Shown here piece by piece: positions 11,742 through 61,554 of a stretch of 64,000 nucleotides of DNA (positions are counted from its first letter, which is position 1; each line of letters opens with the position of its first letter). The notes beneath the pieces were generated by a model that did no database searches, was not told the origin of the DNA, and saw only the letters and a list, made by a program, of their open reading frames with translations. Origin of the DNA: Stictocephala bisonia (taxonomy: Eukaryota > Arthropoda > Insecta > Hemiptera > Membracidae); contig JAQJVL010000280.1 in assembly GCA_035578905.1 (NCBI GenBank), forward strand, positions 1,116,001 through 1,180,000. The letters run 5' to 3'. A program made the position numbers and the translations under genes.

Positions 11742-12408
11742 CTAAAATTGATAAAAATCATTATAATAAACTTGGTACATCTATTTAAAGTTTATATATC
11801 TTTGTGATTTACAAAAATTTTGCTTTGTGGGTACTTACTAATAGTTTAACAGTTTGTTTATTTTGAAATTACTTTATTAGTGCTTTCATTTAGTATCATT
11901 TTAGTTTGTTAACTTATTTTTAATTGTTCTTACAGTATTGTTTTATTATTAACATTTTTTGAAATAGACAATAGACAAATTTCTTTATTCATTTCAAAAT
12001 ATTGGTACATAAGTACATTGAATAGTGTCACTTTTAATAATATTCCTTAGGCTAAATTGTTTACAGATGTCTTTTTGTAAAATTAGGAACAAGGCAATTC
12101 CAAAGCTATATCAATTTCTTCCAAAGAATACAATGCTAAGTCTGCTAAATATTTCTTTAATTTTATTTTAAATTTATTACAATCAATTTCCTTTTTATGT
12201 TTTCTGGAATTTTTCCTAAGAATTTGAGTCCTGCGTATGTGGTTTTATTTTTAAATAATTCTAATCTATGAGACTGAGAAAAAATATGATTTTTTTTCCT
12301 GGTATTATATTTATGTGGTTGGGAATTTGGACTCTTATCTAATTGATTATATTTAACAAACATTATTGTATCTAATACATAGAGCCCGTATACTGTTAAA
12401 ATATTTAA

Positions 12409-13872
12409 CTATTTAAAATAATTTTTGACTGAATCATGGTAATTTAGATTTAATATAATCCTTACTGCCTTTTTTTGCACCTTAAGAATTTCATTTAAAT
12501 TTTCTTTTTTTGTGGCACCGTATAAAGATATTCCATAAGCAATGTGAGACTGAATGTGAGAATAGTATATAATTTTTAAACTTTCAGTATTACATAAAGC
12601 AGACATTTTTCTGATTGCAAACAAACCAGAATTAATTTTATTCAAAACAGACTTTACATGACTGTCCCATGACAAATTACTGTCAACCAGAAGACCCAAA
12701 AATTTAATTTGATCAATATTTTCAATGCTTTCATCGTTAATTATAATGTTTGGGTTTATAACTTGCCTGGATTGTTTTGTTCTAAAATTTACAAATTTAG
12801 TTTTATCAGCGTTTAAATTTAAATTATGTTTGTAAAAAAAGTCATGTAAGTTTGCTAGTTCTATTGTTGCAAAAATTTCTATTTCTTCTTCTGTGTTTCC
12901 CGATACTTTTAAATTTGAATCATCAGCATAAAGGCATAAAGATGTAGTTGGAGAAAAATTTAGACACTCTTTTATGTGTTTCAAATAACAAAGGAAAAGT
13001 AAATGCCCCAGAACTGACCCTTGGGGTACTCCACATTTAACAGGGTTCAATTTAGATTTATACTTAACAATTTGTTTATTTAATGTAATATTATTAATCT
13101 GTACAAACTGTTCCCTGTTTGATAGATAAGATTGAAACCATTTTAACGAAACATTTTTTACACCCAAGTCTTCTAGTTTTAGTAATAACAATCCATGGTC
13201 TACTGCGTCAAAAGCCTTTGACAAGTCCATGAATACTCCAACTACTTTCTCACCTTTATCTATTGATTCTATTATGGAATCAATCAAGCAGACTGCTGAT
13301 GTAATTGTGGATTTTTGTTTTCTGAATCCATGCTGTATATCATCAAAATAATTGTTGTTTTCCAAAAAATTTATTAATTTATTATAAACTACTTTTTCAA
13401 AAATTTTGGAGACTGAAGGTAATAATGAAATTGGCCAGTAGTTATTTATATCCAAGGGGTCAAATTTTTTATAAATTGGTATAATTTTGGCGACTTTTAG
13501 TTGTCTAGGGAAAGTGCCACAAACAAAAGAAGAATTTATCAAATGAGTTAAAATTTTACTGAGTTGTTGTTTAACCACTTTGATTATTGTCATCGGTATA
13601 TCATCGTAACCACATGAAGATTTATTTTTAAAGGAATCAAAAATTTCTTTTACTTCTTCTGTGTTTGTTTCTGACAAGAAAAATAATTTTCTACAATTAA
13701 AACTAGGTAGACTGGGCATATCAATATTATTTGAAATTTTATTTTTGGTAGAATTTTGATGCCTATCTTTATTTTTTATTGTATCCACAAAATAGTTATT
13801 AAAAATGTTGCTGATTTCAAGAGGATTATCAACAATATTATTTTCTACTTTGAGTTTGATGTTATCATTCAA
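12409..13872 (-). pseudogene. LINE ORF2, reverse transcriptase domain
   Basis: A 487-residue open block with the ordered RT motifs: IIPIYKK...[51 protein letters not shown] and LYADDSNLK (catalytic YADD intact), then the thumb FLGLLVDSNLSWDSHV and YGISLYGAT. It is part of a longer ORF2 broken from the endonuclease part near 13880-14120 and from the C-terminal block near 12400. It retains a surprisingly long open frame, so the copy is relatively young. The broken frames and missing 5' end make it a dead copy. Confidence 0.85.
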
Positions 13873-14123
13873 AAATTATTGTTCTCCCTTACAAACAACT
13901 TCAGAATTAATAATATTCCAAGTAGTTTTGTTTAAAATATCAGATTTTTTAATTTTGTTATTGAAAAATTCTTTTTTAGTTGATAACAATTTTTTCTTAA
14001 ATAATTTGTTTTTGGATCTAAATAATTTGAAGTGGTCTAAACTATTTGTGGACCTTACCCTTTTACAGAATTGTATAATTTCCCTTTTCTCCTATTTCAG
14101 TGTTTGGTTGATCCATTTGTTTC

Positions 14124-14890
14124 CTATGTTTCTAATTTTAAAATGTTTTGTGGGAAAAGCCAAATTGTAGTAGTAGTTAAAAATTTCAATAAAGTTACTG
14201 TATTTTCATTAACAGGGGAGTTATAGACAGAATGCCATGATTCTCCCTCAAGCAGTTGAATGAAATATTCCTTATTTTCTTTACTCATGTCCCTCCTAAC
14301 ATCAATCAAATAGTTGTTGTTTGTAGATTGTTTTAAATTTAAATTTAAAAGCTCTAAAATTTGACCATCATGGTCGGACAATGAAGTAATTATGCCACTT
14401 ACTAAAGTTTTATTCTTATTTAAACTAGTTAAAAAGTTATCAATGGCCGAAATTGATCCTTGATATATTCGTGTTGGAAAATCAACTAAATAGTTCATGT
14501 TAAAATTTTTGAGGACAGATTTTAGTTTGAAGTGTGGCTTATCATTTTTTAAAACATCAATATTGATATCTCCAGCAAGTATAACATTTGATGTTTTATC
14601 AAGCAATTTACCAATGAGAATACTCAATCTATCTAAAAATAAATTTACATCGGAGATCTATATAACCCTACCAAAATAAATTTAAACTTTCCCACATTGA
14701 ACATTGTAGCACAGAATTCAAACTTCTTTTCTTCTCTGATACTTTCTACATCAGCAAGAGCCACCTCTGCCCACTTCATATGCTCTTTACTCAAGATCAT
14801 GACTCCTCCTTTGTTACAATTTGTAAGGCAAAAATAGGAGTTAATTTTATAACTATTTATATGAAGTCTATTAATTTCGTGATTTTTCAT
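14124..14890 (-). pseudogene. LINE ORF2, APE endonuclease fragment
   Basis: Two frames carry the endonuclease. The block at 14890-14645 has CNKGGVMIL and a FILVGLYRSPM block (the Y-R-S-P motif). The block at 14627-14124 has ILAGDINID and SLSDHDGQI (the GDxN and SDH motifs of the AP-endonuclease fold). The N-terminal Asn and Glu motifs are missing, so the fragment is truncated at its 5' end. Confidence 0.75.
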
Positions 14891-14899
14891 ATCATGCTA

Positions 14900-15135
14900 C
14901 TCTATTCAACATAGAGGACTCTATAAAACATATTCAATCTTGAACTCTAAGTAATTTCATACCTATATGGTATATATGTATGTTTTTGTTTAACTTTTCT
15001 ATTCTTGTTTTACAGTTTTCTATAAATGTTAATTTTTCCAATACTGTATAATTTTTTTAACTATGTTTTTGAGGTTAAATGTAAGAAAGGACTATATGAG
15101 GTCCTAATTTTTGCCTTAATAAATAATTATTTTCA
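14900..15135 (+). repeat. LINE 3' UTR fragment (plus strand)
   Basis: Ends with a small hairpin (AGGACTATATGAGGTCCT), then CTTAATAAATAATTATTTTC and a CATTCAT tail, as in the 3' ends of insect LINEs. No coding part remains. It sits head to head with the truncated 5' end of the minus-strand LINE. Confidence 0.5.
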
Positions 15136-16821: not shown

Positions 16822-19522
16822 CCTTCCGTCGGGCGCATCACGGAGTTTACCTCCGTGTGGCTAAATATTTCTAAATTCAAATTATCACTTGCGGTCTGCA
16901 GCACCATCCGTTGGTGTACTTCACAAGCTCCCTTCCAAGAATTATTTGTCACAACCGCCACCCCTTTACACAGTCTGGTTTAGCCTTAGTCGAGTATCGC
17001 GCAGCTACCTGGAGGTTGCTTCCTTGTGCGCCTTGCCGCGTTACTGTCCATCCGGAGTCTACTTCCGTGTGCGCCCTACTGTGTTTGTAAAATCCGGAAC
17101 TTTCTCCAAAGTGCATGTTATGGTGTGAAGTAAAATATTAGACATTGTATATATTTTGTACAAAGGATTTGACCATTTTTTATTAGTTTGTTGCTGTATA
17201 TAGTTTTTTTTGCTTTAAATATAGTTTTTTTTTGCTGCAAATAGTGTGTATATATTTTATAATGGATGCCTTAGAGGAAGAGAGACTACAAAGACTTCTT
17301 ATGAGTGTGGAAAGAGAGGAGATGGAGGTTGTAAAACAAAAACCTACCGGTTCATTTGTCAGGCAACTGTTTGCAGGCGATAATGAAGAAGATGTCAATA
17401 TAGATGGTTCTGAAGATGATGAAATGGAATACGCTGAAGATAATGCGCAGATTGAAGAGGAAGAGTCAACAGAAAATAATTTAAATAATTATAGCGACTT
17501 TGATGATTTAGAAAATCTGCCTCTCGCAATCAGAAAGAAGAACGATATAGTTCAAAGAATTGATGGAAGAATTGCTTACATAAGTAAGAGCAGAGATTTG
17601 CTTTGGGATGCACAACCAAAACGTTCAAGAAACCAAGGTAGGAATATTTTAAGAATAAGAATGAACTGTGTAGAGAACATTGCTAAAAATGCTAAAACAC
17701 CTGTTGAAGTATGGTCGTTATTTTTTACTGATGAAATGGTAAATTGCATAGTAGAAAATACAAATATTTGGATTCGTGCTAACAGAGATAATTTTAGTAG
17801 AGAAGAGATGCGAAAGAAACAACAGCTCAAGAGATGAGAGCGGTTTTTGGAATATTGTATATGGCAGGAGTGATGAGATCATTGCACCAAATTCTAGAAG
17901 ACCTCTGGTCGACTGATGGCTTTGGAGTTGAGTTTTTCGGTGCGCAATGTCCCTGAAAAGATTTAAATACTTACTGCGTGCGACAAGATTTGATGAAATC
18001 AACACCAGAGGAGACAGAATGATTTTGGACAAGCTAGCTCCTATCAGAGACCTCTTTGAAGATTTTGTGGAAAACTGCGAAAAAAACTATAGACTCAGTG
18101 AGTTTGTCACAATCGACGAAATGCTGGAGTCATTTCGCGGAAGGTGCAGCTTCCACCAATTTATAAAAAGCAAACCAGCCAAATATGGACTGAAAGTGTA
18201 TGCTTTAACTTGTGCTAGGTCATTTTACACTTCAAAACTTGAGGTCTATACAGGTACCCAGCCAGAAGGTACCTGTATACACACATTCCAAGTTAATAAC
18301 TCGGGAAAATGTGTTGTTGAACGAATGGTTGCAGGAATATCTGGTTCTGGAAGAAACGTGACAGTAGACAATTTTTTTGCGTCAGTTCCACTTTGTGTTG
18401 ATCTACTATGGTTGGAACTTTGAGAAAAAACAAGAAAGAAATTCCCAACTTGTTTTTGAACATCAAAGACCGGAAAGTAGGAAGCTCAATTTTTGCTTTC
18501 AAAGAAGAATGCACTATAGTGTCCTATGTCTCCAGTAAAAAAAAAATGTAATACTACTATCGTCAATGCACGACGACGACGACCTTGATCAGGATCCCAA
18601 TTCACCAACTTTTCAGAAACCTGATATAATACTTTTCTACAACTCCAGCAAAGGTGGACTGGATACAGTAGATAAGTATAAGGAGTCATATTCTACTGCT
18701 AGGATATGCAAAAGATGGTCAATGAGACTATTTTACACGCTGTTGGATGTTGGAGCATTGAACAGCTTCATCATCTTGAAGCAAAACTGTGAAGAACAAA
18801 ATATGAAGAGAAGAAAATTTTTGATGCAGCTGGCTAAAGATCTTTGTAAGGATTACATGCAATCAAGGCTATCAATAAAAAGTACTCCTACGTTTGCCAA
18901 GAAAAGAATTTGTGACCTCATGGATATAGAACCTCCACAAAAGCGAATCGTTCCACCAACGGATGATGTTACATCATCAAGATGTTTCAAATGCGACTGG
19001 AAAAAAAATATACTTTCCAAAACAAGATGTTGCAAATGTAAATTTTTCATGTGCCGTGAACATACAGCCCCACCAAAATGTGTCGAGTGTGTCGAAAACA
19101 TTACAGATCCAGAGGAGGAGAATGGTGATGAGTAATTCAAGTATGTAATGAACAATGTTATTTTGAGGAAATAATTCTGAAACTTATAACTAATTGTTTT
19201 AGTATATATTTGTAATGACTAGTAATAATATTTTTTATGATTTTAATATTTTAAAAGTATTATTGTTTACATAAACTTATAACTATTTTGGAGAATTAAC
19301 TTTTTTGACAATATATATACATAATTATATTAATTAAAGTATAAAAGGGATAATTCCTATCAATTCATGATTTATTTGTAATACTACACTTATTATACAA
19401 TTTAAGTACAATAAAATTCATTTATAACAATAATATGAATTTTTTTCATTAATTTTTCTATCCCGAAGGTTACCTCCGTGTGCGCCCTCTCACGTTATGG
19501 AACGAATGCGCCCGACGGAAGG
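16822..19522 (+). mobile_element. piggyBac element, full length but defective
   Basis: Perfect 17-bp terminal inverted repeats, CCTTCCGTCGGGCGCAT (16822-16838) and its reverse complement (19506-19522), are flanked by TTAA duplications (16818-16821 and 19523-19526). Subterminal ACCTCCGTGTG motifs occur near both ends. It contains one transposase gene broken by frameshifts. The length of 2701 bp is typical of an autonomous piggyBac element. Confidence 0.95.
17262..19135 (+). pseudogene. piggyBac transposase, frameshifted
   Basis: The start ATG at 17262 opens MDALEEERLQRLL, with an acidic N-terminal region (to about residue 90), and the frame runs to 17837. Coding then continues in other frames at 17834-17946 (GILYMAGVMRS), 17947-18423 and 18420-18545, and finally 18566-19135, so at least three or four indels exist. 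Catalytic aspartate blocks are readable: TIDEMLESFRGRCSF, NVTVDNFFASVP and SKGGLDTVDKY. The C-terminus has a cysteine-rich zinc-binding domain (CFKCDWKKN...CCKCKFFMCREH...CVEC), normal for this family. Intact ends with a broken gene mean it could move only if a related transposase is supplied in trans. Confidence 0.93.
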
Positions 19523-20699: not shown

Positions 20700-22400
20700 A
20701 AAAACTGATTTATTTATAAACTAAATATTACAAAACTTTTAATTCCAGAAGTATTGTATGTTTCATTAATTAAAACTTTTTTATTTTAACTGAGCTTGTT
20801 TTTATTTTAATTTAAAACCAGACAGTAAATATTTTTAAGATGCATGAAACTCGTATATAGAGATTCAGACTGCTGAGAAGCTGCTAATATGACAATTATT
20901 TTATATTATAAACTGATTATACTTATATGTCACTTATTTAATTATTCAATGTTTTTCAATTGTTTAAAAAAATATGTTATACTAATAACATAATAAAAAA
21001 AACTATGTCACATAATGCTCCATATTTTAAATATTTAATAAAAATATTCAGATCAACATTTAAATTAAATACATAGTATTTAAACTTTAAAAACCAGGCG
21101 AAATCACAATAAGGCTCAATTGAACCCATTCTCACAAAATAGGTTCTGACCTGGTGAGAACGGGAGAGTGACATGGCTGCCAATCTCGTAAAAAAAGCAG
21201 CCATGGCCAACCAAGGTGGCCATCCGACCTTACGGGTCATTAGCAGGAGTTTGACTGCTGAGCTGATGTAGAAACAAGTGTGGCCAACTGTACTAGACAC
21301 CTGATCTGAGAGAACATTTTTTAACAGACAGTTCAAAGGGTTAAGTTTTGTCCCATAAACAATTAGTCTTTAAGCAAGTCTTTTAGTCTATTTGTCTTTT
21401 AGAGAGATTTGTTAAGGGTATATTGATCAAGTGATGACAGCTGTCAAGTGTAGTGTCAGTTTTATTCGTTAACTACTTATTATTTCAAGTAACTTAAACT
21501 TAAAAGTATTTATAAAGTTTCAGGTAACTACGTAGAACGCTAAAAGATTGTAAACTTTATTTTCTTTAAAGTAGTAATCATAAAAATATAAAAATCCAGT
21601 TACTTACTCTAGCAGCTTTGAGAAGCACATGCTTTTTGCTCCAGTAAAAATTTGCCAATTGAAGCAACTTAACATTATATTAAAACTAATTTAATTAATT
21701 TTGGAGTTTAAATTTTAATATTTGTTGAATGGTTAACAATGAAAAATAAATAATTTTAATAAATACAAGAGTCTACTAGACAGGAAATGAATTAATTGAC
21801 TGAACACCTGCTGCTGAGTACTGTGGTTCGTTCCTGTTTAAGATTGCTGCTTCTCTCACTGAACTTTGCAACAGCTATTTGTTTCCAGCTGTCAATCTTT
21901 AAATGTAAACAGCTGATTTATTTTGACACAATCAGAAATGTTACTGATTGTTGGTCCTTGTTATTTTGTTTAACTTTTTAATGTGGACAATACACATTTG
22001 GAGGCAGTAATAATTATATGTGTATTAGGGAAACATTTAACATACAACTTAAGAAAAGGAAGCAATAATTTGCAATAAACAAAAGCAACAACATTAATCT
22101 AATTAATTATTAAATACTGTATTGAATTTCTGATGCTGCACTTGATAAATTGTGTATGAATATTTTAAAATGACAAACACTACTACCATATATTTTAATA
22201 AAGACAATAATAAACAATAAATAAAGACAAAAACTACACTACAAAGACAATAGTGTACTTAATGTAGTTAGTGTAGTTATTGTTGATATTATTGTTATTA
22301 TAATAATAATAATAGATAAATAGTAAATAAACATTTGAAGAACCTATCATTTTTATGCATGAAGCCTCTCTGCACTTCATTTTTGTACCTGAGTACCTAC
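20700..22400. other. No gene recognised
   Basis: AT-rich DNA. The stretch 21110-21320 is more GC-rich and contains short inverted repeats (GCAGCCATGGCC / GGTGGCC), possibly the end of an unrecognised element, but I cannot define it. Confidence 0.4.
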
Positions 22401-22439
22401 TATACATTGGCTATCACGTGAAAATAACTGTTCTCTATT

Positions 22440-22728
22440 ATGATTGCGTCCAAATTTTCTGTGGGAGATAAAATGTTTGCAAAGTTGAAATGGTACCAGC
22501 ATTGGCCTGCAATAATTGAGTCAATTGACGACAATAGTGAAATAATCAAATACAATGTTAAGTTTTACGGATGTGACGATGAAAGAGCTACCATTAAACA
22601 ACTGGATATTTTTCCCTATCTTGAAAATAAAAGTAAATATGGCGTGCTAAAAAAACAAAATACGCCAGAAGAATAAGAATTTTAACAAAGCTCTAAAAGA
22701 AATAGAAGCTTCTTTCATTAGAAACTCT
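22440..22728 (+). pseudogene. LINE ORF1, PWWP domain
   Basis: The reading frame starts at ATG 22440. Residues 7 onward match the PWWP fold as seen in HDGF/LEDGF-like proteins: VGDKMFAKLKWYQHWPAIIE (the P-W-W-P variant here is YQHWPA), then YNVKFYG, a DIFPYLENKSKYG block, and after a one-base shift in an A run near 22650 the C-terminal helix FNKALKEIE. PWWP domains bind methylated histone H3K36 nucleosomes and DNA. In this element it would be the N-terminal module of ORF1. The first in-frame stop is at 22674, but the adjacent frame is open to 23190, so the stop reflects an indel. Confidence 0.8.
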
Positions 22729-23735
22729 TCAATAAGTTGTGAGAGTAGTAAACCTGGTAATGAAAGTAACACTTCTGGGACTGTCTCAACACCTGACAAA
22801 ATACTTAGGCCTACCCCAACACCTGCAGCTACCAGCAGTCCCAAAAGCCCTAATGTAAACGGGAAGCCTGAGAGTGATATTTTGTCTAAGGTTACTTGTA
22901 CACTCGAGTTAACAGAGAAAGATAGAATCAATAATAAATCCAATCTGCTTTCTGACTTTTTAGGACCTAACTGGCTCAGTGATGATACCATTCATAAATA
23001 TTTTGAATTACTGAATGATAAGCTCAATGGTAACAATATTTTATGTTTGAACCCTACTATTTGCTATGCCCTAAAAACACTGAAGGACTATACTTTTCTC
23101 TTGGAACCTCTTGGACTTCGAAAATTCAATTATATAATCTTTCCTGTAAATGACTGTGATGAGGCTTCATTCGCTGGTGGATCTCACTAGAGCCTACTTG
23201 TTTTTGATAGAGATACACATATTTTTTATCATTATGACTCAAGTAAGAGTTATAATGCTAAAAGTGCCAAACTCAATTCCATGAAGATCCACAATTATTT
23301 TACCGACACTGACCTGACTACTCCTGTGTTTATGAGAAGAAGGCTCCACAACAACTGAACAATTATGACTGTGGCGTACATCTGCTAATCACAGCTGAAT
23401 GGATTATTAATCAAGTGCTTAGGCTAAAAGTATCTTGTTTAAAGGATGTCAATCTGTTGTTCCCCCTGTGTAAATCCAGTTTGATAACAAAGAGAAGTAA
23501 CATCGCCTATGTAATAAATAATAAACTAACAATCTCCATAGATTTTGTAGAATCACTTTTTTATTTTAAATTATGCACTCAACAGTTAACTGCTCCATCC
23601 TTAACTGAAACTAACAGAAACAATGTCACATCATCACATAGTAGTGTAAAACCCTTACAACAATGGCAAACAACTAAGAGTAAATTGTCTAACCAACCTC
23701 AAGGCATTGTCAGGATTTACTTTGTCTCTTTCTAA
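22684..23735 (+). pseudogene. LINE ORF1, Ulp1/SENP-like cysteine protease
   Basis: After a Ser/Pro-rich linker (TSGTVSTPDK...TPAATSSPKSP), the frame holds WLSDDTIHKYFELLN, the usual start of a C48 protease domain. It then has the catalytic-His block GGSH followed by a TAG in place of the expected Trp codon and SLLVFDRD, the Asp block FYHYDS, and after a one-base shift near 23350 QLNNYDCGVHLL, with the oxyanion Gln and catalytic Cys. All of His, Asp, Gln and Cys are present. Family role: cleavage of SUMO/NEDD8-type conjugates. Relatives of NEDP1/SENP8 size seem closest, but that is by eye. Confidence 0.8.
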
Positions 23736-23877
23736 TAAGTACCAGCCATTGACCACTGAAGACTCCAAAGATGTCCCAGATAAGGACAATGCCAACCCTG
23801 AAGACAATGTTAACAGCTCTCAGAAGTCTGATAAAATTAATACAGTTTCCCTCCATCCTAAAAGTGGCAGTAAAAGT

Positions 23878-24520
23878 GTCAAAAGTCAAAAGTCAAAAGT
23901 CAAAATCATCTTTATTAACTCATTCCTTAAGAATAGTTACAGCGTCAATGATAAAACTAACTAAACTAATAAATTAAACCTGTTAAATCAAAAACAATGA
24001 ATACAAGCAAGATTCATATTTGTCAACAATAAGACTAATAAGTTAAACCCATTAATAACAATTAATACAAGCAAGACTCAAAATTGTCATTAATAAAAAG
24101 GTAAAATGTGATAAAAGCTTAAATTTTATGATACTTCAAAATGTGTTCTGTAGAAATTCATCAATGCTGTAAAAGGGATGGTCCATGAGCCAGGTATTCA
24201 GTGCTGTCTTCAATGTGTTTCCAGTTTTTGATCTTAAATTTGGAGGTAGGCAGTTGTAAAATTTTCTTTCCATATATGTCGGTTTTTTCCCATATAAGGT
24301 GAGATGATGTCGTGGAAGGGGGTACATTGCTGAATTTCTTGTATTGTGATTATGAATGTCTTGCAGTCCTTCTGGGTTCTCTTTGTCAATGTATAAAACC
24401 AACTCCTGGATGTAAAGAGCTACAACTGTTAGGATTTTAAGGGTTTTGTAAACTTCTCTGCAACTGTCAAGTGTGTTCCAAAACAAAAAACTAATGGACA
24501 ACAGATTTGCCATAGTGAAG
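23878..24520 (-). mobile_element. Nested LINE 3' end (minus) inside the composite LINE
   Basis: On the minus strand, 24513-24136 encodes the LINE terminal block DIHNHNTRNSAMYPLPRHHL...FYNCLPPNLRSKTGN...FYSIDEFLQNTF. The 3' terminus is AATAAAGATGATTTTGACTT followed by TTTTGAC repeats (about four units at 23878-23905), the kind of microsatellite tail left by CR1/L2-group LINEs. Host LINE coding resumes at about 24520 in a compatible sense. Confidence 0.8.
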
Positions 24521-25095
24521 GTAAAGGAAGAAAGCTAAAAGTATCCATGTTCTCAGACAGTCAAGGAAGAGATGTTGCACATCAAATCACAGAAATTAAT
24601 CGAAATAGGGTAAAGGCCGTGGGAAATGTTCTGAGTGGTGCACGTCTTGTCCAGGTAGCAGAGCATGCAGTGCAGGCTAATGATGACTGTATCGTCATTC
24701 TTGGTGGCACTAATGACTCCACAGAGTACAATTTCTGAGAGATTTACTCATCATTAGAAAGCAAGCTGGTTGCTATAAACAAAAACAAGCCACTGGTATT
24801 ATCAACAATAGTAAGAAGTTATGATTTACATGAGACACACTATATTCATCATAAAATTGATCTCACAAACAATTACATTAGAGCACTAACAGATCGGCAT
24901 GACTCTATTTACATTAGAGTACTAACAGATCGGCATGACTCTATTTACCTGTTGGATCTGGATGTGCTTTCAAGATTCTATTTCACCCGACAAGGCTTCC
25001 ATTTAAATCACAGAGGAAAAACAAAAGTTGCATATCTTATCAGTAAAATTCTACATCAAATTTTTAAGGAATTAGATGTTGTTATCACTTGTGGA
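24520..25095 (+). pseudogene. LINE ORF1, SGNH/GDSL-type esterase domain
   Basis: Block I is MFSDSQGRDVAHQI (Ser in the nucleophile position of the GDS motif), block III is VILGGTNDS (Gly and Asn of the oxyanion hole), and the C-terminal block is FYFTRQGFHLNHRGK (catalytic His with the usual LINE-esterase TRxGxHLN context). A TGA interrupts at 24736, and a 37-bp tandem duplication (24876-24949) repeats the IRALTDRHDSIY segment. Esterase domains of this family are known in ORF1 of CR1-like LINEs. Confidence 0.8.
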
Positions 25096-25966
25096 AAACA
25101 ACCAATACAAATTATAGAGTGTAATATGAGAGAAAAATACAAGAATTTCGAGATGAAAAACTGACTGCCTTTGCGCATTGTATCTCGGCAGACCTGCATG
25201 ATAACAAAAACATGAGTGCTGGGGTTGCAAAGGACTTTGCTGATTGCTTTGGGAAGCCGGTTTCTTCTGATTACGTTGCATCTCATTTAACCTCTCAGAA
25301 TAAAGATATTGGTTCAACTATATATGGTTTAGTTACTAAAGCCAATTACTATGCAAAACCCAACATACTTAATTACAACTTTCAAAGTAGGGGACTGAAA
25401 CGGCTCATTTGCTCTCGATGGGCTGCACAAGGAACCGCATTCCTCTCCAACTTTTTGCTGCAAATATAGTCAACTTTCAACTGAAACTTGGAGCAACAGT
25501 GCAAATAGTGACATATGAAGAGTCAACTCGTGGGATACTAAGTAATGGGCTATCCCTCCCTGTTTTCATTATAACTTTACAACTTGAAATAACATCTCTT
25601 CAAAAACACCTGTTGACTCTTTTCATTGCTGACCCTGATAAGAATACAAATCCAACTGCTGCCCCCTGTGAGCCTGCAGAGACTTCTGCTGCAAGCTTTG
25701 CTGGGACCTCCTCCGAGACTCCTGTTGCAGCCTCTGACAGGGCTCCTGCTGAGGCTCGTACTGCGACTCCTGCTGCGACTTTTGCTGTGACTCCTGCTGT
25801 AGTCTCTGCTGAGACTCTTGCCGAGACTCCAGCTTGGAGGTTGGAGCAACCTCAACCTCAATCTATACCTACAATTGTAAACTCACCAGGATGCCTTGGG
25901 AATGATGTGACAAGTGAGTCTCTGGTGTCAAGTGAATTTTCTGGTTGTCAAGAAAAGTGTATTTAG
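25096..25966 (+). pseudogene. LINE ORF1, macro domain and Ala/Pro-rich linker
   Basis: The macro fold can be read through two frameshifts: first strand IQIIECNMREKY; then FAHCISADLHDNKNMSAGVA (compare the AHCIS...MGAGIA block of TARG1/OARD1); FADCFGKP; STIYGLVTKANYYAKPN; GLKRLICS; MGCTRNRIPLQLFAANI (the G-C/I-G-x-D-R block); and TVQIVTYEE as the last strand. Such domains bind or hydrolyse ADP-ribose on proteins. The SGNH frame joins directly to the first strand, so both were in one ORF. A low-complexity A-E-T-P linker (about residues encoded at 25640-25860) follows before the endonuclease. Confidence 0.78.
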
Positions 25967-26660
25967 TAATATAGTTCAATCTGCAGTGATCCCTCAGCTA
26001 TTAGGTTTTTGTGAGACTGATGCTTTGAATATATTGTTCTTGAATATTCAGGGTATCAGTTTTACAAAAAACAACATCTTAGAAACCTTCCTAATTAACA
26101 TTAATATTTACATAGTATGCTTATCTGAGCATTGGCAATCAGATGAGGGTATTAACCAAACATTTCCTGAAAATTTCATTTGTGCTGGCGCTTACTGTAG
26201 ATCTGAACATATCAGAGGTGGCACATCCGTTTTTGTACATGATAAATATCAATCTAGGTTGTGTGATGTTAGTAGATTTTGTAAAGAGTTCACTTTTGAA
26301 GCATCTGTTGTTTTCATAGATGACATTAAATTGATTGTTGTATCTGTGTACCACTCACCAAATGGTGATGCTCATGATTTTTTTAGCTATACTTGAACAG
26401 TTTTTATATTTTATTACCAAATGGTCTAACTACAATATTGTTCTAGGTGGAGATTTTAATGATAAATTTAATGTTCAATTAAAACTAAAACAGTAAAAGA
26501 ATGTTTAAATCTTTTTAAACAAAACAACTTTTATCATTTAAATGACAAACCCACAAGAGGTGATAAATGCCTAGACAATGTTTTTGTTTGTAAAAGACAG
26601 GCCACGATTTCTCTTTTAAATATCATCCCCTTTCCATATTCAGATCATAGAGGGATAGTT
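25967..26660 (+). pseudogene. LINE ORF2, APE endonuclease
   Basis: All expected motifs of the exonuclease-endonuclease-phosphatase fold are visible in order: LFLNIQGI (Asn), VCLSEHW (Glu), RGGTSVFV, VSVYHSPNG, then after a frameshift near 26395 LGGDFND (Asp/Asn), LDNVF, and PYSDHRGI (Asp-His). This is the target-nicking enzyme for target-primed reverse transcription. The domain begins only about 15 codons after the Ala/Pro-rich linker ORF overlaps it, so ORF1/ORF2 separation is tight. Confidence 0.85.
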
Positions 26661-26666
26661 ATTGAT

Positions 26667-28798
26667 ATGTGTCTAGCTAAAAACTCCTCTAAACAAATAG
26701 AATTTTCTAATACTTCTGCAGAATTAACATTTCACTTTCCTACTAAAAATATAAATAATCTATGTCTAAACTTAGCTTCTTACGATTGGCAAAATCTCTT
26801 AATAAAACTTGATGACAAGGATCCTGAGAACATGTTTAGTTATATGTTTAATATTCTAATTTATAACTTAAACTATTTTAAGGTTTTAAGGAAAAACAAA
26901 TATAGTGAGTCAAAAAGTAAAACTAAGTTTAAACAAGAGTGGTACACTTTTGAATTAGCTTCAATGAAAAAAAGACTTTTAGCTTTATATAACTTGAAAA
27001 GTAGCAATGGTCATACCTGTAATTTAGATCTAAACTTAGCATACAATAGATTAAAATGTCAGTACACTAATTCAATAAGAGAAGCAAAACTAGCATATAA
27101 TGTTCATTATATTGAAAATAGTAGTGATAAATGCAAAGCAGCATGGGATCTCATTAAGAAAAATAATATTTCTTCTGGTAAAGTCACTTGTAAAATAGAA
27201 CCTGATGTTCTTAACAATTATTTTACTTACTGTATATGTGACATAAAAAACAAATTGAATAATCCCAAACCATCCAGTTGTTATTTAGAGAACATAAATG
27301 GGAATGTTAATAATAATAATGTTACATTTAGTTGGGAAAATATCACACATAATAAACTAATTTCTGCTGCACATAGCAACAATGTATACGGTATTTCAAA
27401 TAACCTACTCAAAAGTATTGTTTACAGTCTTGATGTACCTCTTTCAAGTTGTATCAACCTTCTGTTAAGAGAAGGAGTATTTCCAGACTTATTGAAGGTA
27501 TCTCGTGTTTGTCCGGTTTATAAGAAGGGTCACAAAGATCTACCTCATAGTTTTCGCCCCATATCAGTCATTCCAGTAATAGGCAAGTTTATTGAAGTTT
27601 ATGAACAAGTCAGCGAATATTTTGAAACAAATAACTTATTTAACATATCCCAATTCGGTTTTAGGAAGGGAATGTCCACAATTGATGCTCTTGACAATCT
27701 CATTAGGCAAAACAAAACCTTTGCTCAGGGAACCTTCTGTGACCTGAGCAAGGCATTTAATTGTGTTGATTTTAACATTCTCATTAACAAGTTGAACCTA
27801 TATGGATTTCATGGCTCTTCCTTAAAATTCTTTTTTTCATATTTAAAGAACCGTAATCAAATTGTTAGCATCAATGGGAAGTCATCCCAAGTTAAAGACG
27901 TTAACTGGGGTGTTCCTCAAGGATCAGTCCTTGGACCTTCTCTATTTTAAATTTATATTAATGACTTACCTCTGGCAGTAAATACTAAAACTTTCTCTAC
28001 GCGGATGATACAACTTTTTTTCATATAAGTCATAACCCTAATGAATTGGAGAAATTAGCAGATCAGACAATGCAAAACGCATCTAATTGGTTTCATTCAA
28101 ACGGATTTTTGTTAAATAAGGAAAAAACTCAGAATATACTTTTTACACTAAAAAATAACTTCACTCAAACAAACAATAAAATAACATCAGCTAAATTTGT
28201 AGGTCTTCATGTCGATAATCAATTATCCTGGAACTTGCACTTTGACCATCTGTCTTCCAGACTATCCCGGGTTATTTATCTTCTAAAACGTCTCACTGAT
28301 CAATTTCCGAAAAATTATCTTAGAACAGCGTACTTTGCCTATTTCCAATCAGTAATGAGATATGGTCTGATTTTCTGGGGTGGGAGTGGTAGAATAAATG
28401 AAATTTTACTTCTTCAAAAGAAGGCTTTAAGAGCCATGAATGGGTCTAACCCAAGAGAACACTGCAAACCTCTTTTCATTGACTGGCATATTCAAACAGT
28501 AGTAAATTTATTTATTTTTGATCTCATTAACTATATTCTAAAAAATCCAGAATATTTAAAATTTAACAGTCATGATCACAACACTCGATTTAAAAATAAT
28601 GCAATGATAGAATCCCACCGTCTTAGTAAAACCAGTAATAGTCATATTATTTTATCAGTAAAAATATACAATGTTCTAAAAGAGCCCATCAATGCTTATC
28701 CTGAAAATGTTTTTTATTTTTGTTCTATAATTTGGCTACTTGAGAACCCTTTTTATAACCTGGATGACTTTCTTAACACTGGAAATGTATTGTTATAA
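26667..28798 (+). pseudogene. LINE ORF2, reverse transcriptase and C-terminal block
   Basis: The first frame (26667-27950) has a pre-RT region, then [44 protein letters not shown] and [14 protein letters not shown], followed by a premature TAA at 27948. The catalytic box reads L-Y-A-D-D-T-T in a shifted frame near 27993-28013. The second frame (28046-28798) has the thumb KFVGLHVDNQLSWNLHFDH and YGLIFWGG, and the terminal block HDHNTRFKN...FYNLDDFLN. The catalytic Asp pair survives, but the frameshift and stop abolish expression. Confidence 0.88.
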
Positions 28799-29103
28799 TA
28801 GGATTTTTTATCTTTTATTTTATTATTTTATTTTAATTTTTTTATTTCATTTTATTGTAATTTTTTCTCTCTTATTTTTTATTTATTATTTTTTTTACTG
28901 AGCCTTGCTGCTTTTAATATTGTAACTTTCATTATCACAACCTATGTATCTGAATTGTATCTTTGTACCTTAGTTCTTGTTAGAACAGTTCTCTTTTTTA
29001 GAAATAGGAGCCTTTGACAAGGTTCTTGTTACTGCTATTTTGTCATTGTCAATGATATGTAATGTATTCTTACGACAAATAAAGATTTATTATCATCATT
29101 ATT

Positions 29104-30000
29104 TATTTATAATTTTTTTCAATTTAACCTTTGAGTTTCTAATGTTTTTGCTATTATGTTAATAGGAAATCTTGTAGGATGTTGTAAGAAGAGATTCATA
29201 GGTTATCACTGTGAACTCCTTGCAATGTACATTAAACAGATTTCATTATATACGTAAATATTAGTAATTTGCAACAAATCCAAATTTGTATGACAAAATT
29301 TAAATGTTGTTAAGACTATCATTTTTATTCTTACATTTTCTTGTTGAGATGTATCTACTTAGATTACAAAAGTTATCATTTATTTTAAATTCTGTTACTC
29401 TAAACATACTTGAATAATTTAAATAAATCCCTGTATTTTATTATTTTTAAACATTTGGACCATTATCCATACTGATATTTCATGATTTAATAATATATTT
29501 ATATTTGTAAATTGTTACATGCTATATAAGCAGTGACTTTTCCTTTGTATGCTATAAGGATGGAATTTTTTATGAACATAAATTATTCAAATAATATCCC
29601 TACTTAAATAATTTATAGGGATTTTTATAAAAAATGGGTTTTTTAAATAAACATTATCCAGTAAGTATCTGAAATCATAAGTAGAAACCTTTACATTTTT
29701 TTTTATAGAAAATAATATTAATATAAAAATATTTTGTACAAATTGGTACATTCTCTAATAAGTACTATGACTATTGAACACATTTATATGTTGAAATCAT
29801 CATAAAAGTATCTGAATGTAAAATAGATTATTTTATAAATTTTTTTAATTGTCACAAAAGTATTAGTCAAAAATACATGAACTTTAAAATTAAAAAAATT
29901 TTATTCTTTATGAAGTCTTTTTATAAATAGATCATTTGCTTAAACAACATATACTAAATTAAGAAAACGACAAAAATAATTAGTTATTACATAAGCCCCT
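29104..30000. other. AT-rich DNA, no gene recognised
   Basis: About 900 bp with only short shadow ORFs. No terminal repeats or RNA genes were identified. Confidence 0.5.
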
Positions 30001-30015
30001 TACTCTTTGGTTTTT

Positions 30016-30136
30016 TGGGGGGCTGTTACTTTGGGGGGGCTGTTACTTTGGGGGGCTGTTACTTGGGGGGGGGGGCTGTTACTTGGGGGGGGCTGTTACT
30101 TTGGGGGGGCTGTTACTTTGGGGGGGCTGTTACTTT
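30016..30136 (+). repeat. G-run tandem repeat, potential G-quadruplex
   Basis: About seven units of GGGGGGCTGTTACTTTG with G runs of 6-10, ending in GGCTGTTACTTTCAGG. The G runs are separated by 11-12 bases, so intramolecular quadruplexes need long loops, but adjacent strands can pair. Unit-length variation is mostly in the G run. Confidence 0.85.
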
Positions 30137-30879
30137 CAGGCAATTATAGGTTATTTTAATTTTGGGACATCTTGTCAGAGATAAATGCCATTATTTTAAG
30201 ACTGATTTTTCATATATTTGTATTTCAAATACTGATACACATACATTTATTACAATACTGATCCTAAGATTATTTTAAAACCTACAAGTTTCGATTTGCT
30301 TTATTCTTTTCAATATTTAAACTGACTATATTTTTTTAGATTAGTTTAAAATATGAAACAAACGAATATCAAGTTCTTTTATTTGAAAATTTTACTTATT
30401 TTAAAAAACTTGTAACATTGTCAATTTTGATGGCTAAGTATTAAGATAGAATTATAGTACCATAGTAGTAGTTACATTTGCTTCACGTATGACCTATACA
30501 TTGTACAGTGTACTTTTTTGATCAACAGATTTTTTAATTTGATTTTTTCATTAGAAAAGAATAAATTATTTGTTTTTAACTATAAATCAATCTTTTAATT
30601 CTTTGACGATTCCCCGTCCAAGGGATATTACCTTTTGGATGTATTGTGATGTAGAAAAAAAGGACATATTCTTTATACAGTAGACAGTTGTAGATACATA
30701 ATGAATATATAGTAAATATATTATGTTGTTTAATTTATAACCATATTATGCTTATAATATTAATTCATTAAAACTGACAATTATATACAGTAAACACTTG
30801 TCGATGTCTAAGAAATATTATAGTAATTAATGATTTTTAAGAATTCTATAGGCCTACAATGAAATGTCTTGTTCAAAAC

Positions 30880-47706: not shown

Positions 47707-47886
47707 AGTAGCAATTTAAATTCTGCCAAAAAGCTCTTTACGGAGAAATTAAAATTTTTTGAGGCTAATTTTTTTGTAGCTGAGTGAACATAACAATGTA
47801 GGGGGTTTGAATGTGGCATACATGTACTTGCTAATGCAAGATTAATCGATGATAGCTTTTGTACTAAAGTTGAGTCAAGTTGTACC
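47707..47886 (+). repeat. Direct repeat of the LINE protease segment
   Basis: About 180 bp, roughly 90 percent identical by eye to 49329-49507, including TAGGGGGTTTGAATGTGGCA. It carries the Cys-block part of the Ulp1-like domain but sits upstream of the apparent 5' UTR. Confidence 0.85.
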
Positions 47887-48440
47887 GGGTTGGTAGGCCT
47901 GGTCCTACACTTCAGGCTGAGAAGAACATCGCTTGTTTTAATTAACTCTTAGTGCTGATCTAGGAATGTGTTCTTAGTTTGAACCAGTCGATCTAAGTGT
48001 TGGAGTATGCGTCCGTGTGACCGTGGCATCGAACCGCTCTAGACTGTGTGTAAGTAGTCTACCTACTAAATAAAAGGGTCGCCTTTGTCAATGAGAACGT
48101 TCTGGTTCCGCACTGACAACCATTCGTGCCAGAGTTCGCGCACGTGCACTAATAACTCGTTGCAGGCTGCCAGCTGCACTGAAATTCCCTCTGACTAACT
48201 GGCTACCCAGCATCTGATTGACAAGGGGTAAAAAATACAGCATTTTGATTGCGCCTGACGTTCACTTGAATGCAACCTATTTACAGGATGTTGTGTATAT
48301 TGCCATGACTTGATTACTGGGGCACTACACACTTAATCACTGTGACTTTAACTGAAGAGTCGATTTGGATAGTTGACATCCTAATTAAATGACTATTAGA
48401 CTTTCATAACTAGTCTTAAGTACAGTTATCAGTTATAAAC

Positions 48441-48780
48441 ATGGTTGTAACTCGAGCTAAGCTAGCTACTGATAAACTAGACAATGTGCTAAATGTGGCA
48501 TTTAATCTAGATGACACCTCTGCAGATATTGTATCTGAACTTTGTTTAAAATGGAAATAATTAGAGGCAAACTATCCTGATTTAAATTTACAAGAGCTGG
48601 AAATGTGTGTCTCACAGCTCATTAGGAAACTTAATGAAGCCAATGGGAATATTTCTCACCTTGAAACTTTGGTTGAAGCTGACAAAAGTGAGATCCTGGT
48701 TTTATAATCTAAGTTAAATAAAGTAATAGTGGAAAAAAGATGTTTTGAATGCCTCTCTACATGCCCAGGTAATTGTTACT
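48441..48780 (+). pseudogene. LINE ORF1 N-terminal coiled-coil region
   Basis: From ATG 48441: MVVTRAKLATDKLDNVLNVA, then an in-frame TAA at 48558, then LNLQELEMCVSQLIRKLNEA and HLETLVEADKSEIL. The heptad-like spacing of Leu/Ile with charged residues suggests a coiled coil for ORF1 multimerisation. Later parts (48840-48990) continue similar residues in shifted frames (VETLNLKINVCKK...SLVSQLK). Confidence 0.55.
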
Positions 48781-48999
48781 GAGAAAAGAGACTCTATTCG
48801 TTGTGAAAATATACAACAAAATCTAGTTTAAGTTCATGTAATAGTAAAATAAGTAGAAGGGAAAAGCAAAATATTTCCTTACAAGCTCATCTCTCAGAGA
48901 TAAATACTCTGGTTGAAACTCTTAATCTAAAAATAAATGTTTGTAAGAAAAAAAAAATATAGTTAGCTAAGAAGGTAGATAGTTTAGTTTCTCAACTCA

Positions 49000-49860
49000 A
49001 ATGCACTAGTGACTACGCCTGGCAAGAGGGCCGCTGGGTTGATGACAGAATTTTGGATTCATATTTTGAAATATTTAATGTTAATAACAATCGGAAAACA
49101 TGCTCGAAAACCTAGTTTGTGTGGCCCACTGTGACACAATTGCTTAGGCACGGTAGTTCTTCCTAAGTGCAGCTACAACTAAACGAACTTACTTTTAATA
49201 CTTTTGACTATGTCTTTATGTGTATAAATAACAATGGAGTGGAGCTCAAGTCAGACAACGGCTCGTATTGGAGCTTGTTGTTTATTGATCTTAAAGCTGA
49301 GAGTGGCTATCGCTTTGATTCTCTTGGAAGTAGCAATTTTAATGCTGCCAAAAAGCTATTTACAAAGAAATTACAATTTTTGAGGCTAATTTTTTTGTAG
49401 CTGAGTGTACACAACAAAGTAGGGGGTTTGAATGTGGCATACATGTACTTGTTAATGCAATATTAATTGATGATAGCTTTTGTACTGAAGTTGAGTCAAG
49501 TTGTACCTCCTTCAAGGATTGGCTAAGTGTCTCTTGGGTAGTAGGTGCACCCCTATTAAACAGAGATAATGTTTGCGAAAATAAACCTGACAATCATGTA
49601 ATAAGTCTAAATAAAGAAGGTACTATTGAAAAAGATAGTCATACTGGAGACAAAAATGTTAACCATAATAGTATTAATTTAGTTTTAGAAGAAAATAGTA
49701 TTAAGAAAAATAACCAGTTGTTAAAAGTGGATTCCAAGTCTAAAGGCAAACGTAACCATAGACCAACAACCCCAAAAAAGACTACTTTTGTTCATGAAAA
49801 TCCATATAATGTACTAAATGGTTTAATGGGGCCGGTAAAGACAAATGTTACTCTAGCTAT
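49000..49860 (+). pseudogene. LINE ORF1 Ulp1-like protease
   Basis: WVDDRILDSYFEIFN matches the entry block WLSDDTIHKYFELLN of the other LINE. It is followed by FDYVFMCINNN, then SDNGSYWSLLFIDLK, where the catalytic His is replaced by Tyr, YRFDSLGSSN (Asp block), and after a frameshift near 49385 QQSRGFECGIHVLVNA (oxyanion Gln and catalytic Cys). A long charged linker (NSIKKNN...SKGKRNHRPTTPKK) leads to the esterase. Loss of the His would inactivate the protease, although Tyr from His can be one mutation (CAC to TAC). Confidence 0.75.
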
Positions 49861-50034
49861 ATTGTAAAAACTGTCTCAGGAAACTGGAAAGAAAACAACC
49901 AATGTAAAAACAAAGAGTTGAATTCTAAGATAAGGCCTTATAATACTCCAGTGTTTACAACAAAACAACCTGATTTTGAGGGTAGTTGTGCAACTGGGGA
50001 GCAAACTCAAACAATTTCGAACACAGCCGTTGAT

Positions 50035-50965
50035 GGTTGTCTTTCTAAAAATGTTTTGGTGATTGGAGACTCCTTGTTGAGGTATGCTGGAAGTCTCTGT
50101 GCCAAGAATGGCGCTATCGTGGACATGCATCCTGGGGCAAAAATAATGGATATAAAGCAAAATCAACCAAAAATTATATATATATATCCATATTGGTACC
50201 AACAATCTAATTAATGGTTATAATGGTGGTGCTGGTTATTATTGGTCGGTAGCGTAGTTGGTTCAATCCCAGCTTCATGTGCTAAAGGTTCTCAATTCGA
50301 TCCCAATCAAAGTCAATACATTTTGAGAAGGATCAGCTGATAATCACCGGCTGTTCATTTGTCATTGGGCTATTAATTAATGACACTTTCTAAGGAATAG
50401 TCGGCCTTAGTTTGTAACAATGACTACATTCGCTCATCTAAACTCCTAACACTCATTCGAAATCCATATTCACCCATATCTTGATGATCAGCGTCTTATG
50501 AATAAATAAAAATAAATAAATAAAAAAATAAATAATGGGGGCTGGAGGAAGAAACAAACCCTGCATATCATGGCTGACTTGTGTGTGCAACAAGGCGTCT
50601 CTTTCCTGAGTCAAAAGTCATCTTAAGTGATGTATTGCACAGAAGGGACATAATAGATTCATCCCTTGCACTCTTCAACGACCAACTCTAGATCATGTGC
50701 AATAACTTCGGAGTTGAGTTTGCCGTAGCAAATCAATCTGTTAAAAAACATCACCTAACCTGTGACGGACGTAACTTGGGCTGGACAGGAAATTGCCTTC
50801 TAGGCAGGTTCATCTTTCAACAGGTACAAAAGGCAATGTTTATCGTTGCCATGCCGGTTGAGCAGTCTGTGGTTCTTCCATCATCCTCCATCCCAAAAAG
50901 CCCTACATCCACAACTGCCAAACTGTTGGGAAACAGTGTCATGGCATTGCCCCCTTTACCAGATT
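50035..50965 (+). pseudogene. LINE ORF1 SGNH esterase, split by SINE-A
   Basis: Block I is NVLVIGDSLLRYAG (GDS nucleophile), with IVDMHPGAKIMDIKQ, then block III GTNNLINGYNGG with one shift near 50180. The SINE at 50244-50534 interrupts the GGAGYY/NGGWRK sequence, after which IMADL and the C-terminal HLTCDGRNLGWTGN region follow. The terminal His of the usual HLN block is not clear. The 84-residue 3' part runs directly toward the endonuclease, and no macro domain is visible here. Confidence 0.78.
50244..50534 (+). mobile_element. SINE-A copy 3
   Basis: Head GGTCGGTAGCGTAGTTGGTT, box B AATTCGATCCC, body TTCATTTGTCATTGGGCTAT, tail AATAAATAAAAATAAATAAA. The longest tail and good conservation suggest the youngest copy in the window. 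Confidence 0.9.
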
Positions 50966-52125
50966 AGGTCATGTAAATTTTCGCTCGCTTAACACCGGAT
51001 TTAGTGAGCTTGGCGCTGTAGCTGAAGACTTTGATTTTTTAGGAATCTCAGAAACTTGGTTGACTCCGGATATGTCTTCAGAATGTTACAGTTTGAAAGG
51101 CTATTCTCTCTTACGTAGTGATAGAACAAGTCGGCACTGGTAGCGCAGTGCTGTAACCCAGCTACATGGGGACAAAGTGTTTGGGAGATTGTAGGCGATA
51201 GGTTGGATGCTCGGTCCTCTTAATACCGGCAAGGCGTCCGCTTAATGGTTGCTATCGGCATGGACACTACTAGAGAAGTCTGGGGTGTCCATGTTGGGTG
51301 GTAATCATTGTGCGGATGTTGTGTGGGTGAGATAACAGAGTATCAGGCTTGTCAATTAGCTGAAAATCAGACCAGCACTATTTGGTTCGGATTCCATGTA
51401 AAGCTATAGGTCCCTTAGTTACCCTGGCTGTTGGGCTATTAATAAATTGCCCTTTCTGAGGAACAGTTGAACTCAGTTAGTAACCAGACTACACTCATAT
51501 AACCATTCATATTAACCTTAAAATACCAACAACGTTGTGACGGCGTCTCATATGTAAGAATAAGAATAAGTGGGGATCGAGACCCTTCGACTGATGGGGG
51601 TGTTGCACTTTATTTCAAAAGAAAATTTGATATAAAGCGTATCTATCTTGATAGTATAGAAAATCGTTTAGAATATGTTTGTTGTGTTGAGAGCACATGG
51701 TTTGCGCTTATGTATTTGTGTGGTTTATAAATCCCCCAATGTTACTTTTTCATGTTTTATTAGTCTTTTCAATGCACTTTTTATTGATATGCTTTCTGAG
51801 GTTGAAGAGGTTGTGTTGGTTGGAGACACAAATATTAATCTTTCAGAATGCACCAAACCCGAATTCAAATTCCTCACAAACCTCTTAGAATCTTTAAACC
51901 TTGTTCAGTTCATACCCACGTGACGGACAAAAAGGCGCTGATTGACCATATTATCATGAGCAAATCTTTGAGTTACATAAATGTTGGTGTGATCAACACA
52001 TCTACTATCTTTAACTGTCCAGGCAGGCTTATCACGGACTACAAACTTGTGTTCTGTGACTGTCCCTGTAAAGTCAAAAGGAGAGTCAAGGAGAAATTTG
52101 TAACTTTCAGGGATTTCTCTTAAGT
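50966..52125 (+). pseudogene. LINE APE endonuclease, split by SINE-B
   Basis: HVNFRSLNTGFSELG (Asn block), DFLGISETWLT (Glu block) and YSLLRSDR precede the SINE. After it come DGGVALYFKRKF, ICVVYKSPNVTF and VVLVGDTNINLSE (Asp/Asn block). The SDH-equivalent is seen weakly in GRLITDYKLVF (TDY). Frame changes lie around 51690 and 51900. Confidence 0.8.
51126..51570 (+). mobile_element. SINE-B copy 2
   Basis: A tRNA-like start GTCGGCACTGGTAGCGCAGT (box A region) is followed by GGTTGGATGCTCGGTCC, then GTCTGGGGTGTCCATGTTGG and a 3' part shared with 38695-39030. It lacks the long AATAAA tail of SINE-A and ends in TAAGAATAAGAATAAG. It interrupts the endonuclease coding sequence. Confidence 0.8.
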
Positions 52126-52157
52126 TAAATCTCGACAGGTTTACATCGGAGCTCTGT

Positions 52158-61339: not shown

Positions 61340-61554
61340 ATCCTTTTTATTATTTATCCCTGTTAGTTCATTGATGACTATCCAAAATCGTTTGAGGTCA
61401 TTCTGAAATTGGTTTAATTTAGATCTGTAATAATTACATTTAGAATATTTAATTGAATTAGCAATAAATTGTCTTAATGCAGAATAATTATTTTTTATCT
61501 TAATGTTAAAAGGTTGGTTTTTTTAACATTTTTACTTAACACTATATAGTAGAT

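Follow-up and report, generated by a model that had tools for sequence, protein, structure and literature searches.

Layout and decay of the element

The window analysed here, a stretch of 64,000 nt of the Stictocephala bisonia genome (GCA_035578905.1, contig JAQJVL010000280.1, positions 1,116,001-1,180,000, forward strand), contains a long interspersed nuclear element (LINE) with an unusual first open reading frame (ORF1). On the plus strand, a PWWP domain, an Ulp1-type protease, an SGNH (GDSL) hydrolase-like domain and a macro domain succeed each other within 22440-25534, and are followed at 25974-28798 by an APE-type endonuclease and a reverse transcriptase (RT), both belonging to ORF2 (Table 1). 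Frame-by-frame reading of the ORF1 region revealed open pieces with several frame shifts. Indeed, the copy is dead, as it carries frameshifts and stops and has the 3' end of another LINE nested inside it. For protein and Pfam searches, the broken frames of ORF1 were joined with X at the breaks (X-joined ORF1).

As a chance test, module profiles seeded from relatives alone, with the window excluded, were run on the complete six-frame set of 1927 window pieces. All four modules were matched within 22428-25963, exclusively on the plus strand, and an additional Ulp1 locus was detected near 47.8-49.9 kb. The minus strand yielded zero matches to any of the four modules, and no match at E 0.01 was obtained in the controls, which comprised three block-shuffled windows and one reversed window. 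Together with the Pfam and Protein Data Bank (PDB) matches given below, these results bear out the proposal of a first-pass annotation, made from the sequence letters, that four non-RT domains lie in one orientation ahead of an APE-RT set. The domains and their order stand; the description of the region had to be corrected for a minus-strand LINE piece at about 23880-24535 and a tandemly duplicated 36-nt segment within SGNH. The nested piece is flanked at 23871 and 24536 by a 10-nt match with one mismatch, a possible target-site duplication. No convincing target-site duplication was detected around the LINE copy as a whole, for which the best match between the flanks is 12 nt long, AT-rich and with one mismatch. 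The LINE-type 3' end that had been placed near 29103 was also recognized, the ATT/ATC run resembling a LINE tail.

Table 1. Features of the four-module LINE and of a second LINE in the window (UTR, untranslated region).
Feature	Position	Strand	Basis and remarks
PWWP domain, HDGF/LEDGF type	22440-22673	+	PF00855 E 1.8e-9, above cut-off (piece 22428-22673)
Ulp1/C48 protease, SENP8/DEN1-like	22888-23528	+	Ends hand-mapped from profile match; in-frame stop at 23188, one frameshift
Nested 3' end of a different LINE, 5'-truncated	23881-24535 (approximate ends)	-	ORF 24136-24513; tblastn of ORF2 relatives 24118-24534
SGNH (GDSL) hydrolase-like domain	24523-25060 (approximate ends)	+	One in-frame stop; 36-nt tandem duplication at 24873-24944
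Macro domain, TARG1/OARD1-like	25094-25534 (approximate ends)	+	Profile pieces E 1.2e-32 and 7.1e-10; frameshifts
Low-complexity C-terminal tail of ORF1	25535-25966	+	Open frame 25391-25963
APE-type endonuclease domain of ORF2	25974-26660	+	tblastn with ORF2 relatives starts at 25974; frameshifted
Reverse transcriptase and C-terminal part of ORF2	26667-28798	+	RVT_1; frameshift near 27950-28046
3' UTR and ATT/ATC tail of the LINE	28799-29103 (exact end not fixed)	+	Direct sequence reading
Second, decayed LINE	47722-54118	+	Ulp1 upstream of endonuclease-RT pieces; coiled-coil-type N-terminus as in P0136

Identity of the modules and class of the LINE

The four domain assignments fared unequally in Pfam: PWWP and Peptidase_C48 scored above their cut-offs, GDSL_2 (PF13472, E 3.4e-5 on the X-joined piece) remained below its own, and the macro domain went undetected, not only in the window but also in each of the 37 relatives scanned. 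The window PWWP matched the relatives-only profile at E 7.7e-25. Its first PDB match was 6kco (E 1.3e-12), a chain labelled LD23804p in one listing and Shuguo in another, and the next 17 chains were PSIP1 or HDGF-family, including PSIP1 (LEDGF) 3zeh at E 7e-12; these 18 chains, out of 20 listed, span E 1.3e-12 to 4.5e-10. The PWWP of the element is therefore nearest to HDGF/PSIP1-type chains. The integrase-binding domain of LEDGF was not among the Pfam matches of 37 ORF1 relatives.

The protease was recognized by PF02902 (Peptidase_C48) from the piece 23313-23732 alone (E 6.6e-5), which covers the C-terminal part of the family, and from the X-joined piece (E 2.1e-5). The best solved structure for the latter was SENP8 (2bkq, E 2e-18), and the relatives-only Ulp1 profile matched single-frame window pieces at E 2.8e-26, 2.1e-14 and 3.7e-10. 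Catalytic His and Asp were found in 28 of 29 aligned rows (P0128 is without that part), and Gln and Cys in every one, the window counting as one row in this and the following alignments. Both the His/Asp/Gln/Cys set and the DEN1 fold of SENP8/DEN1 (C48) proteases are thus present. For the SGNH domain, the relatives-only profile matched window pieces at E 3.5e-26 and 2e-17, and Ser, Asn and the block-V His were conserved in 39/39 rows.

The macro piece of the window alone retrieved OARD1/TARG1 as its leading PDB match, weakly (E 0.21-0.49), and a profile of eight macro sequences reached OARD1 at E 1.9e-14, this being the sole macro protein among nine PDB matches up to E 10. The catalytic Lys is present in 40/40 rows and the Asp in 39, the exception being the window copy, which carries Asn. 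These residues align with OARD1 residues 84 and 125, counted along the chain, so that the macro fold, the catalytic Lys84 and the acidic residue 125 of TARG1/OARD1 are all found. The catalytic pair of TARG1 has been given as Lys84 and a partner printed as Glu125 (PMC7050489), and the K84A variant did not rescue bacteria from DNA ADP-ribosylation (PMC8501950).

Regarding ORF2, RVT_1 was matched on 26667-27947 (E 3.7e-14), and ORF2 relatives aligned by tblastn over 25974-28795, P0007 being 60% identical to the window ORF2 across 99% of the query. In two intact relatives the endonuclease was recognized by Pfam: PF03372 scored above its cut-off in P0007 (E 3e-7), and PF14529 fell slightly short of its own in P0008 (E 7.2e-6). 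Neither an RNase H domain nor nuclease families other than APE-type were found in the five ORF2 relatives scanned (P0007, P0008, P0014, P0029, P0065), and the lack of RNase H fits the CR1/L2/Jockey superfamily; solved structures and NCBIfam were uninformative as to the RT clade. Endonuclease and RT in one ORF with ORF1 upstream on the same strand, the arrangement of APE-type LINEs, were observed in the window and in a second copy on host contig C5100, described below.

Elsewhere in the window, a minisatellite made up of a G-run plus CTGTTACTTT unit with a period of about 17 occupies 30000-30142, about 900 bases past the LINE end. Two more LINE ORF2 regions, distant relatives of the four-module LINE, lie on the minus strand at 12166-14941 and 59669-61597, and the plus strand holds open frames at 17232-19135 which, judged by eye, we take to resemble a piggyBac-type transposase.

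Relatives of the element and modularity of ORF1

A search with the X-joined ORF1, in which scoring was limited to the 7994 candidates sharing most words, retrieved six proteins, and a second search with the SGNH-macro part of P0002 retrieved 35, of which 33 were new, giving 39 ORF1 relatives. As SGNH and macro were selected for in the second search, variation can be assessed solely in whether the N-terminal modules are present. The organisms named among these relatives are the leafhoppers Homalodisca vitripennis and Graphocephala atropunctata. All four modules were found in the window order and in open frames in six of the 39 relatives (P0003, P0004, P0127, P0129, P0130, P0133), one of them from Homalodisca. 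The Homalodisca protein P0003 has 906 aa, covers 98% of the X-joined ORF1 query and contains both PWWP and C48; its tail (residues 798-906) has a predicted local distance difference test (pLDDT) score <50 in the predicted structure. Predicted folds in an intact relative match SENP8/DEN1, TARG1 and an HDGF/LEDGF-type PWWP. Among the best 50 rows of the structure comparison there was no PWWP or LINE-esterase chain, an uninformative result, as one domain of the long model fills the list. Fold and catalytic or motif residues are shared with the host proteins SENP8/DEN1, TARG1/OARD1 and HDGF/LEDGF, but whereas these are separate genes, the modules are here fused in one element-encoded protein.

The remaining relatives show other combinations. 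Ulp1-SGNH-macro without PWWP is the commonest (21/39), and includes two proteins with an MBD (P0132, P0135) and one with FLYWCH (P0143); PWWP-SGNH-macro and SGNH plus macro alone account for five proteins each. P0153 (1/39) has the permuted order FLYWCH-macro-Ulp1-SGNH, suggesting that modules may be reshuffled as units. In P0159 from Graphocephala atropunctata (1/39), three double-stranded RNA (dsRNA)-binding motifs precede the same macro domain without SGNH; this protein is either a further form of ORF1 or the fusion of a macro domain from an element to a host gene for dsRNA binding. The MBD matches in Pfam were well above the cut-off and the two FLYWCH matches slightly under it. The N-terminal module therefore varies among PWWP, MBD, FLYWCH or none. 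The 12 Pfam families matched by 37 ORF1 proteins at E 0.01 include no PHD finger, RRM or CCHC knuckle. The absence of PHD and the alternation of PWWP, MBD and FLYWCH at the N-terminus fit the earlier idea that PWWP stands in for the PHD finger of other LINEs.

In the tree of the SGNH and macro parts, the window groups with P0127 and P0001 (99/98), and a supported four-member group unites both MBD proteins with two PWWP proteins, P0130 and P0133, which indicates that reader modules have been exchanged or replaced. Placing the six labels on this tree requires 15 changes, where the minimum is 5 and shuffled labels average 19.5, a value as low being reached in 1/200 shuffles; the labels are thus clustered yet often changing. 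In the ORF2 tree, which broadly agrees with the ORF1 tree, the window adjoins P0007, and the supported group of 19 to which it belongs also includes P0014 but not P0029.

Several lines of evidence connect the modules to the LINE. Within the window, the alignments of ORF1 relatives end at 25798, and those of ORF2 relatives begin at 25974. The second LINE of the window (Table 1) has the C-terminal part of its Ulp1 duplicated at 47722-47886, and an SGNH-like stretch near 49918-50214 was confirmed neither by Pfam nor by the SGNH profile. From the host genome (1.68 Gb, 11105 contigs), 20 stretches were hand-picked out of 150 scored RVT_1 matches, and no module match lay immediately 5' of any of the 20 RT loci on the strand of the RT, suggesting that other LINEs of the host are without the module kit. 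Stray pieces of the family were found in three of these stretches. Contig C5100 carries, all on the minus strand, macro (10868-10332), endonuclease (9970-9350) and the C-terminal half of the RT (7784-6960), overlapped by a plus-strand piece of another LINE; SGNH, Ulp1 and PWWP were not found in the extended stretch. Ulp1 and SGNH occur on the plus strand of C3936 and on the minus strand of C276, where an RT piece follows farther on. Finally, 38 ORF1 contigs were compared by size with 115 ORF2 contigs, the latter from 120 proteins listed of 958. Two pairs of equal size, P0002 with P0014 (6226 bases) and P0148 with P0029 (5756 bases), were observed among contigs of at least 5000 bases, where 0.05 were expected (p 0.0008). 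Since intact relatives keep the order, a host copy preserves macro-endonuclease-RT, a second window LINE has Ulp1 ahead of endonuclease-RT and ORF1 and ORF2 occur on long contigs of the same size, the data support that the four modules are part of the LINE. What emerges is a LINE lineage whose modular ORF1 combines chromatin-reader-type modules with three further domains, namely a protease of SENP8 type, an SGNH domain and a macro domain of TARG1 type.

CR1/L2-lineage LINEs with an esterase or PHD finger in ORF1, reportedly tied to work by Kapitonov and Jurka in 2003, are comparable in their APE-RT ORF2, an SGNH domain in a modular ORF1 and a chromatin-reader module in some members (PMC4120745). 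The ORF1 types catalogued there for 448 Jockey-superfamily elements are esterase, PHD, RRM, CCHC and L1-type, and the text of that paper confines the esterase to two vertebrate subgroups. Its Table 1 lists only PHD, RRM, CCHC, Tnp22, coiled coil, zipper/finger and esterase modules and, unlike the present family, no PWWP, MBD, FLYWCH, Ulp1 or macro. The nematode NeSL/Utopia LINEs also encode an Ulp1-like cysteine protease, but at the N-terminus of a single protein with a restriction-like endonuclease (PMC4640811), and the words PHD, esterase, macro and PWWP are absent from that paper; in the present element no such nuclease lies downstream of the RT, and the APE-type endonuclease is upstream of it. 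Ubiquitin-like proteases (Ulp1, OTU), sometimes with PHD, are likewise found in Ginger1, Mutator and other DNA transposons, which, however, encode a transposase instead of an RT (PMC2836005). Jockey-like LINEs of hemipterans, including Homalodisca vitripennis, carry an additional ORF1 enzyme as well, but it is a virus-like helicase, and the paper contains neither the word PWWP nor the word SENP8 (PMC5563155). Among the literature matches listed, which covered titles and abstract openings outside subscription papers and Repbase reports, there was no LINE ORF1 with PWWP or macro, nor one with MBD, which was sought solely as methyl-CpG, no search being made for FLYWCH; such an ORF1 may nonetheless have been published.

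Possible functions and significance

From the domain content, we infer that this ORF1 would dock on chromatin and remove NEDD8-like and ADP-ribose marks at insertion. The chances are about even, in our judgement, that the dead copy represents an APE-type LINE whose PWWP/SENP8-type/SGNH/TARG1-type ORF1 tethers the RNA-protein particle to marked chromatin and, around the nick from which reverse transcription starts, strips off ADP-ribose and NEDD8-like tags. A more specific version is put forward tentatively, the odds being somewhat against it: a swappable reader (PWWP, MBD, FLYWCH) would choose the chromatin, and a constant TARG1-like, mostly SENP8-like core would clear ADP-ribose and NEDD8-type marks at the nick, letting target-primed reverse transcription finish. 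PWWP, or MBD or FLYWCH in sister elements, would take the particle to a chosen chromatin state, similarly to the role proposed for PHD in other LINEs. Once the endonuclease has nicked the target, host PARPs might attach ADP-ribose to DNA ends, histones and element proteins. By hydrolysing these adducts, the macro domain might keep target-primed reverse transcription from being blocked. PARP1 has been found with nuclear human L1, an association that falls in endonuclease and RT mutants (PMC5821459), making ADP-ribosylation at LINE nicks plausible. The protease could take NEDD8- or SUMO-like tags off element proteins or local chromatin, sparing them from turnover; this and the macro step are the least certain. 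Since nearly every row has another residue at the third triad position, SGNH may contribute more to particle assembly or binding than to turnover.

Several observations weigh against this reading. The esterase triad of ZfL2-1 consists of S143, D279 and H282 (PMC3905857), and the block-V Asp is kept in one of 39 SGNH rows, the others having His (33), Gln (3), Phe (1) or a gap (1), a loss that argues against ordinary esterase chemistry. With Asn in place of the catalytic Asp in its macro domain, the window copy would be unable to function even after translation. Although SENP8 ranks first in the protease comparison, this does not prove that NEDD8 is the substrate, since SENP chains score as well, and so does NopD, whose structure has been determined both with SUMO and with ubiquitin. 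PWWP is missing in 28/39 relatives and Ulp1 in 11/39, although some absences may reflect mis-called starts; neither is therefore needed by every element. As to linkage, C276, C3936 and C5100 each lack the complete set of four modules, and across every contig size two equal-sized pairs were observed against 1.1 expected (p 0.31), so that this comparison is too weak as the sole proof.

The same domains admit other roles. Protease and macro could free the ORF1 and ORF2 proteins, in cytoplasm or nucleus, from antiviral-type ADP-ribosylation and ubiquitin-like tags, like viral macrodomains and isopeptidases and without any special role at the nick. This counter-defence, which we consider rather unlikely, is consistent with the conserved catalytic residues of both domains and with the opposition of viral macrodomains to host ADP-ribosylation in mammals (PMC12632316), but the TARG1 class of the macro domain and the chromatin-reader-type N-termini in part of the family point to the nucleus; nothing found separates it from a role at the nick. 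Improbable to a greater degree is that the Ulp1-type domain is a processing protease cutting the ORF1 protein, with macro and SGNH as RNA- or ligand-binding scaffolds replacing the usual RNA-binding ORF1. With no RRM or CCHC knuckle among the families matched by 37 ORF1 proteins, RNA binding must fall to some other region; TARG1 is known to associate with ribosomes and with proteins of rRNA processing (PMC7050489), and the SGNH Asp is replaced in 37 and gapped in one of 39 rows. Nevertheless, the conservation of the macro Lys and Asp exceeds what a binding scaffold needs, and ten of the 39 relatives have SGNH and macro without Ulp1, needing no cleavage.

A capture of host cDNA, or a host gene nested by chance beside an ordinary LINE, was rejected as an origin of the upstream domains and is very improbable. 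The region is rich in transposable elements with nested insertions, and database names of relatives are SENP8 or PSIP1, both of which would favour such an origin, but the same order recurs in six open-frame relatives, Homalodisca has clusters of 9, 5, 5 and 4 member sequences (P0001, P0003, P0152, P0154), and further host-genome copies, provided that they are not segmental duplicates of a single locus, lie upstream of endonuclease-RT pieces with which they share the strand.

Two open problems, the choice of target chromatin by LINEs and their survival of host repair signalling at the nick, have been addressed chiefly in human L1, whose ORF proteins are not known to carry such domains. With a tethering and mark-removing ORF1, the relevant activities would apparently be element-encoded, as separable modules with known catalytic residues and a reader changing between sister elements, making targeting and the PARP/NEDD8 question directly testable. 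In public records, ORF1s of Homalodisca vitripennis elements are labelled SENP8 (P0003) and PC4 and SFRS1-interacting protein (P0152), names of host genes that conceal element ORFs in this leafhopper, and elements with the four modules would likely edit host marks at their insertion sites.

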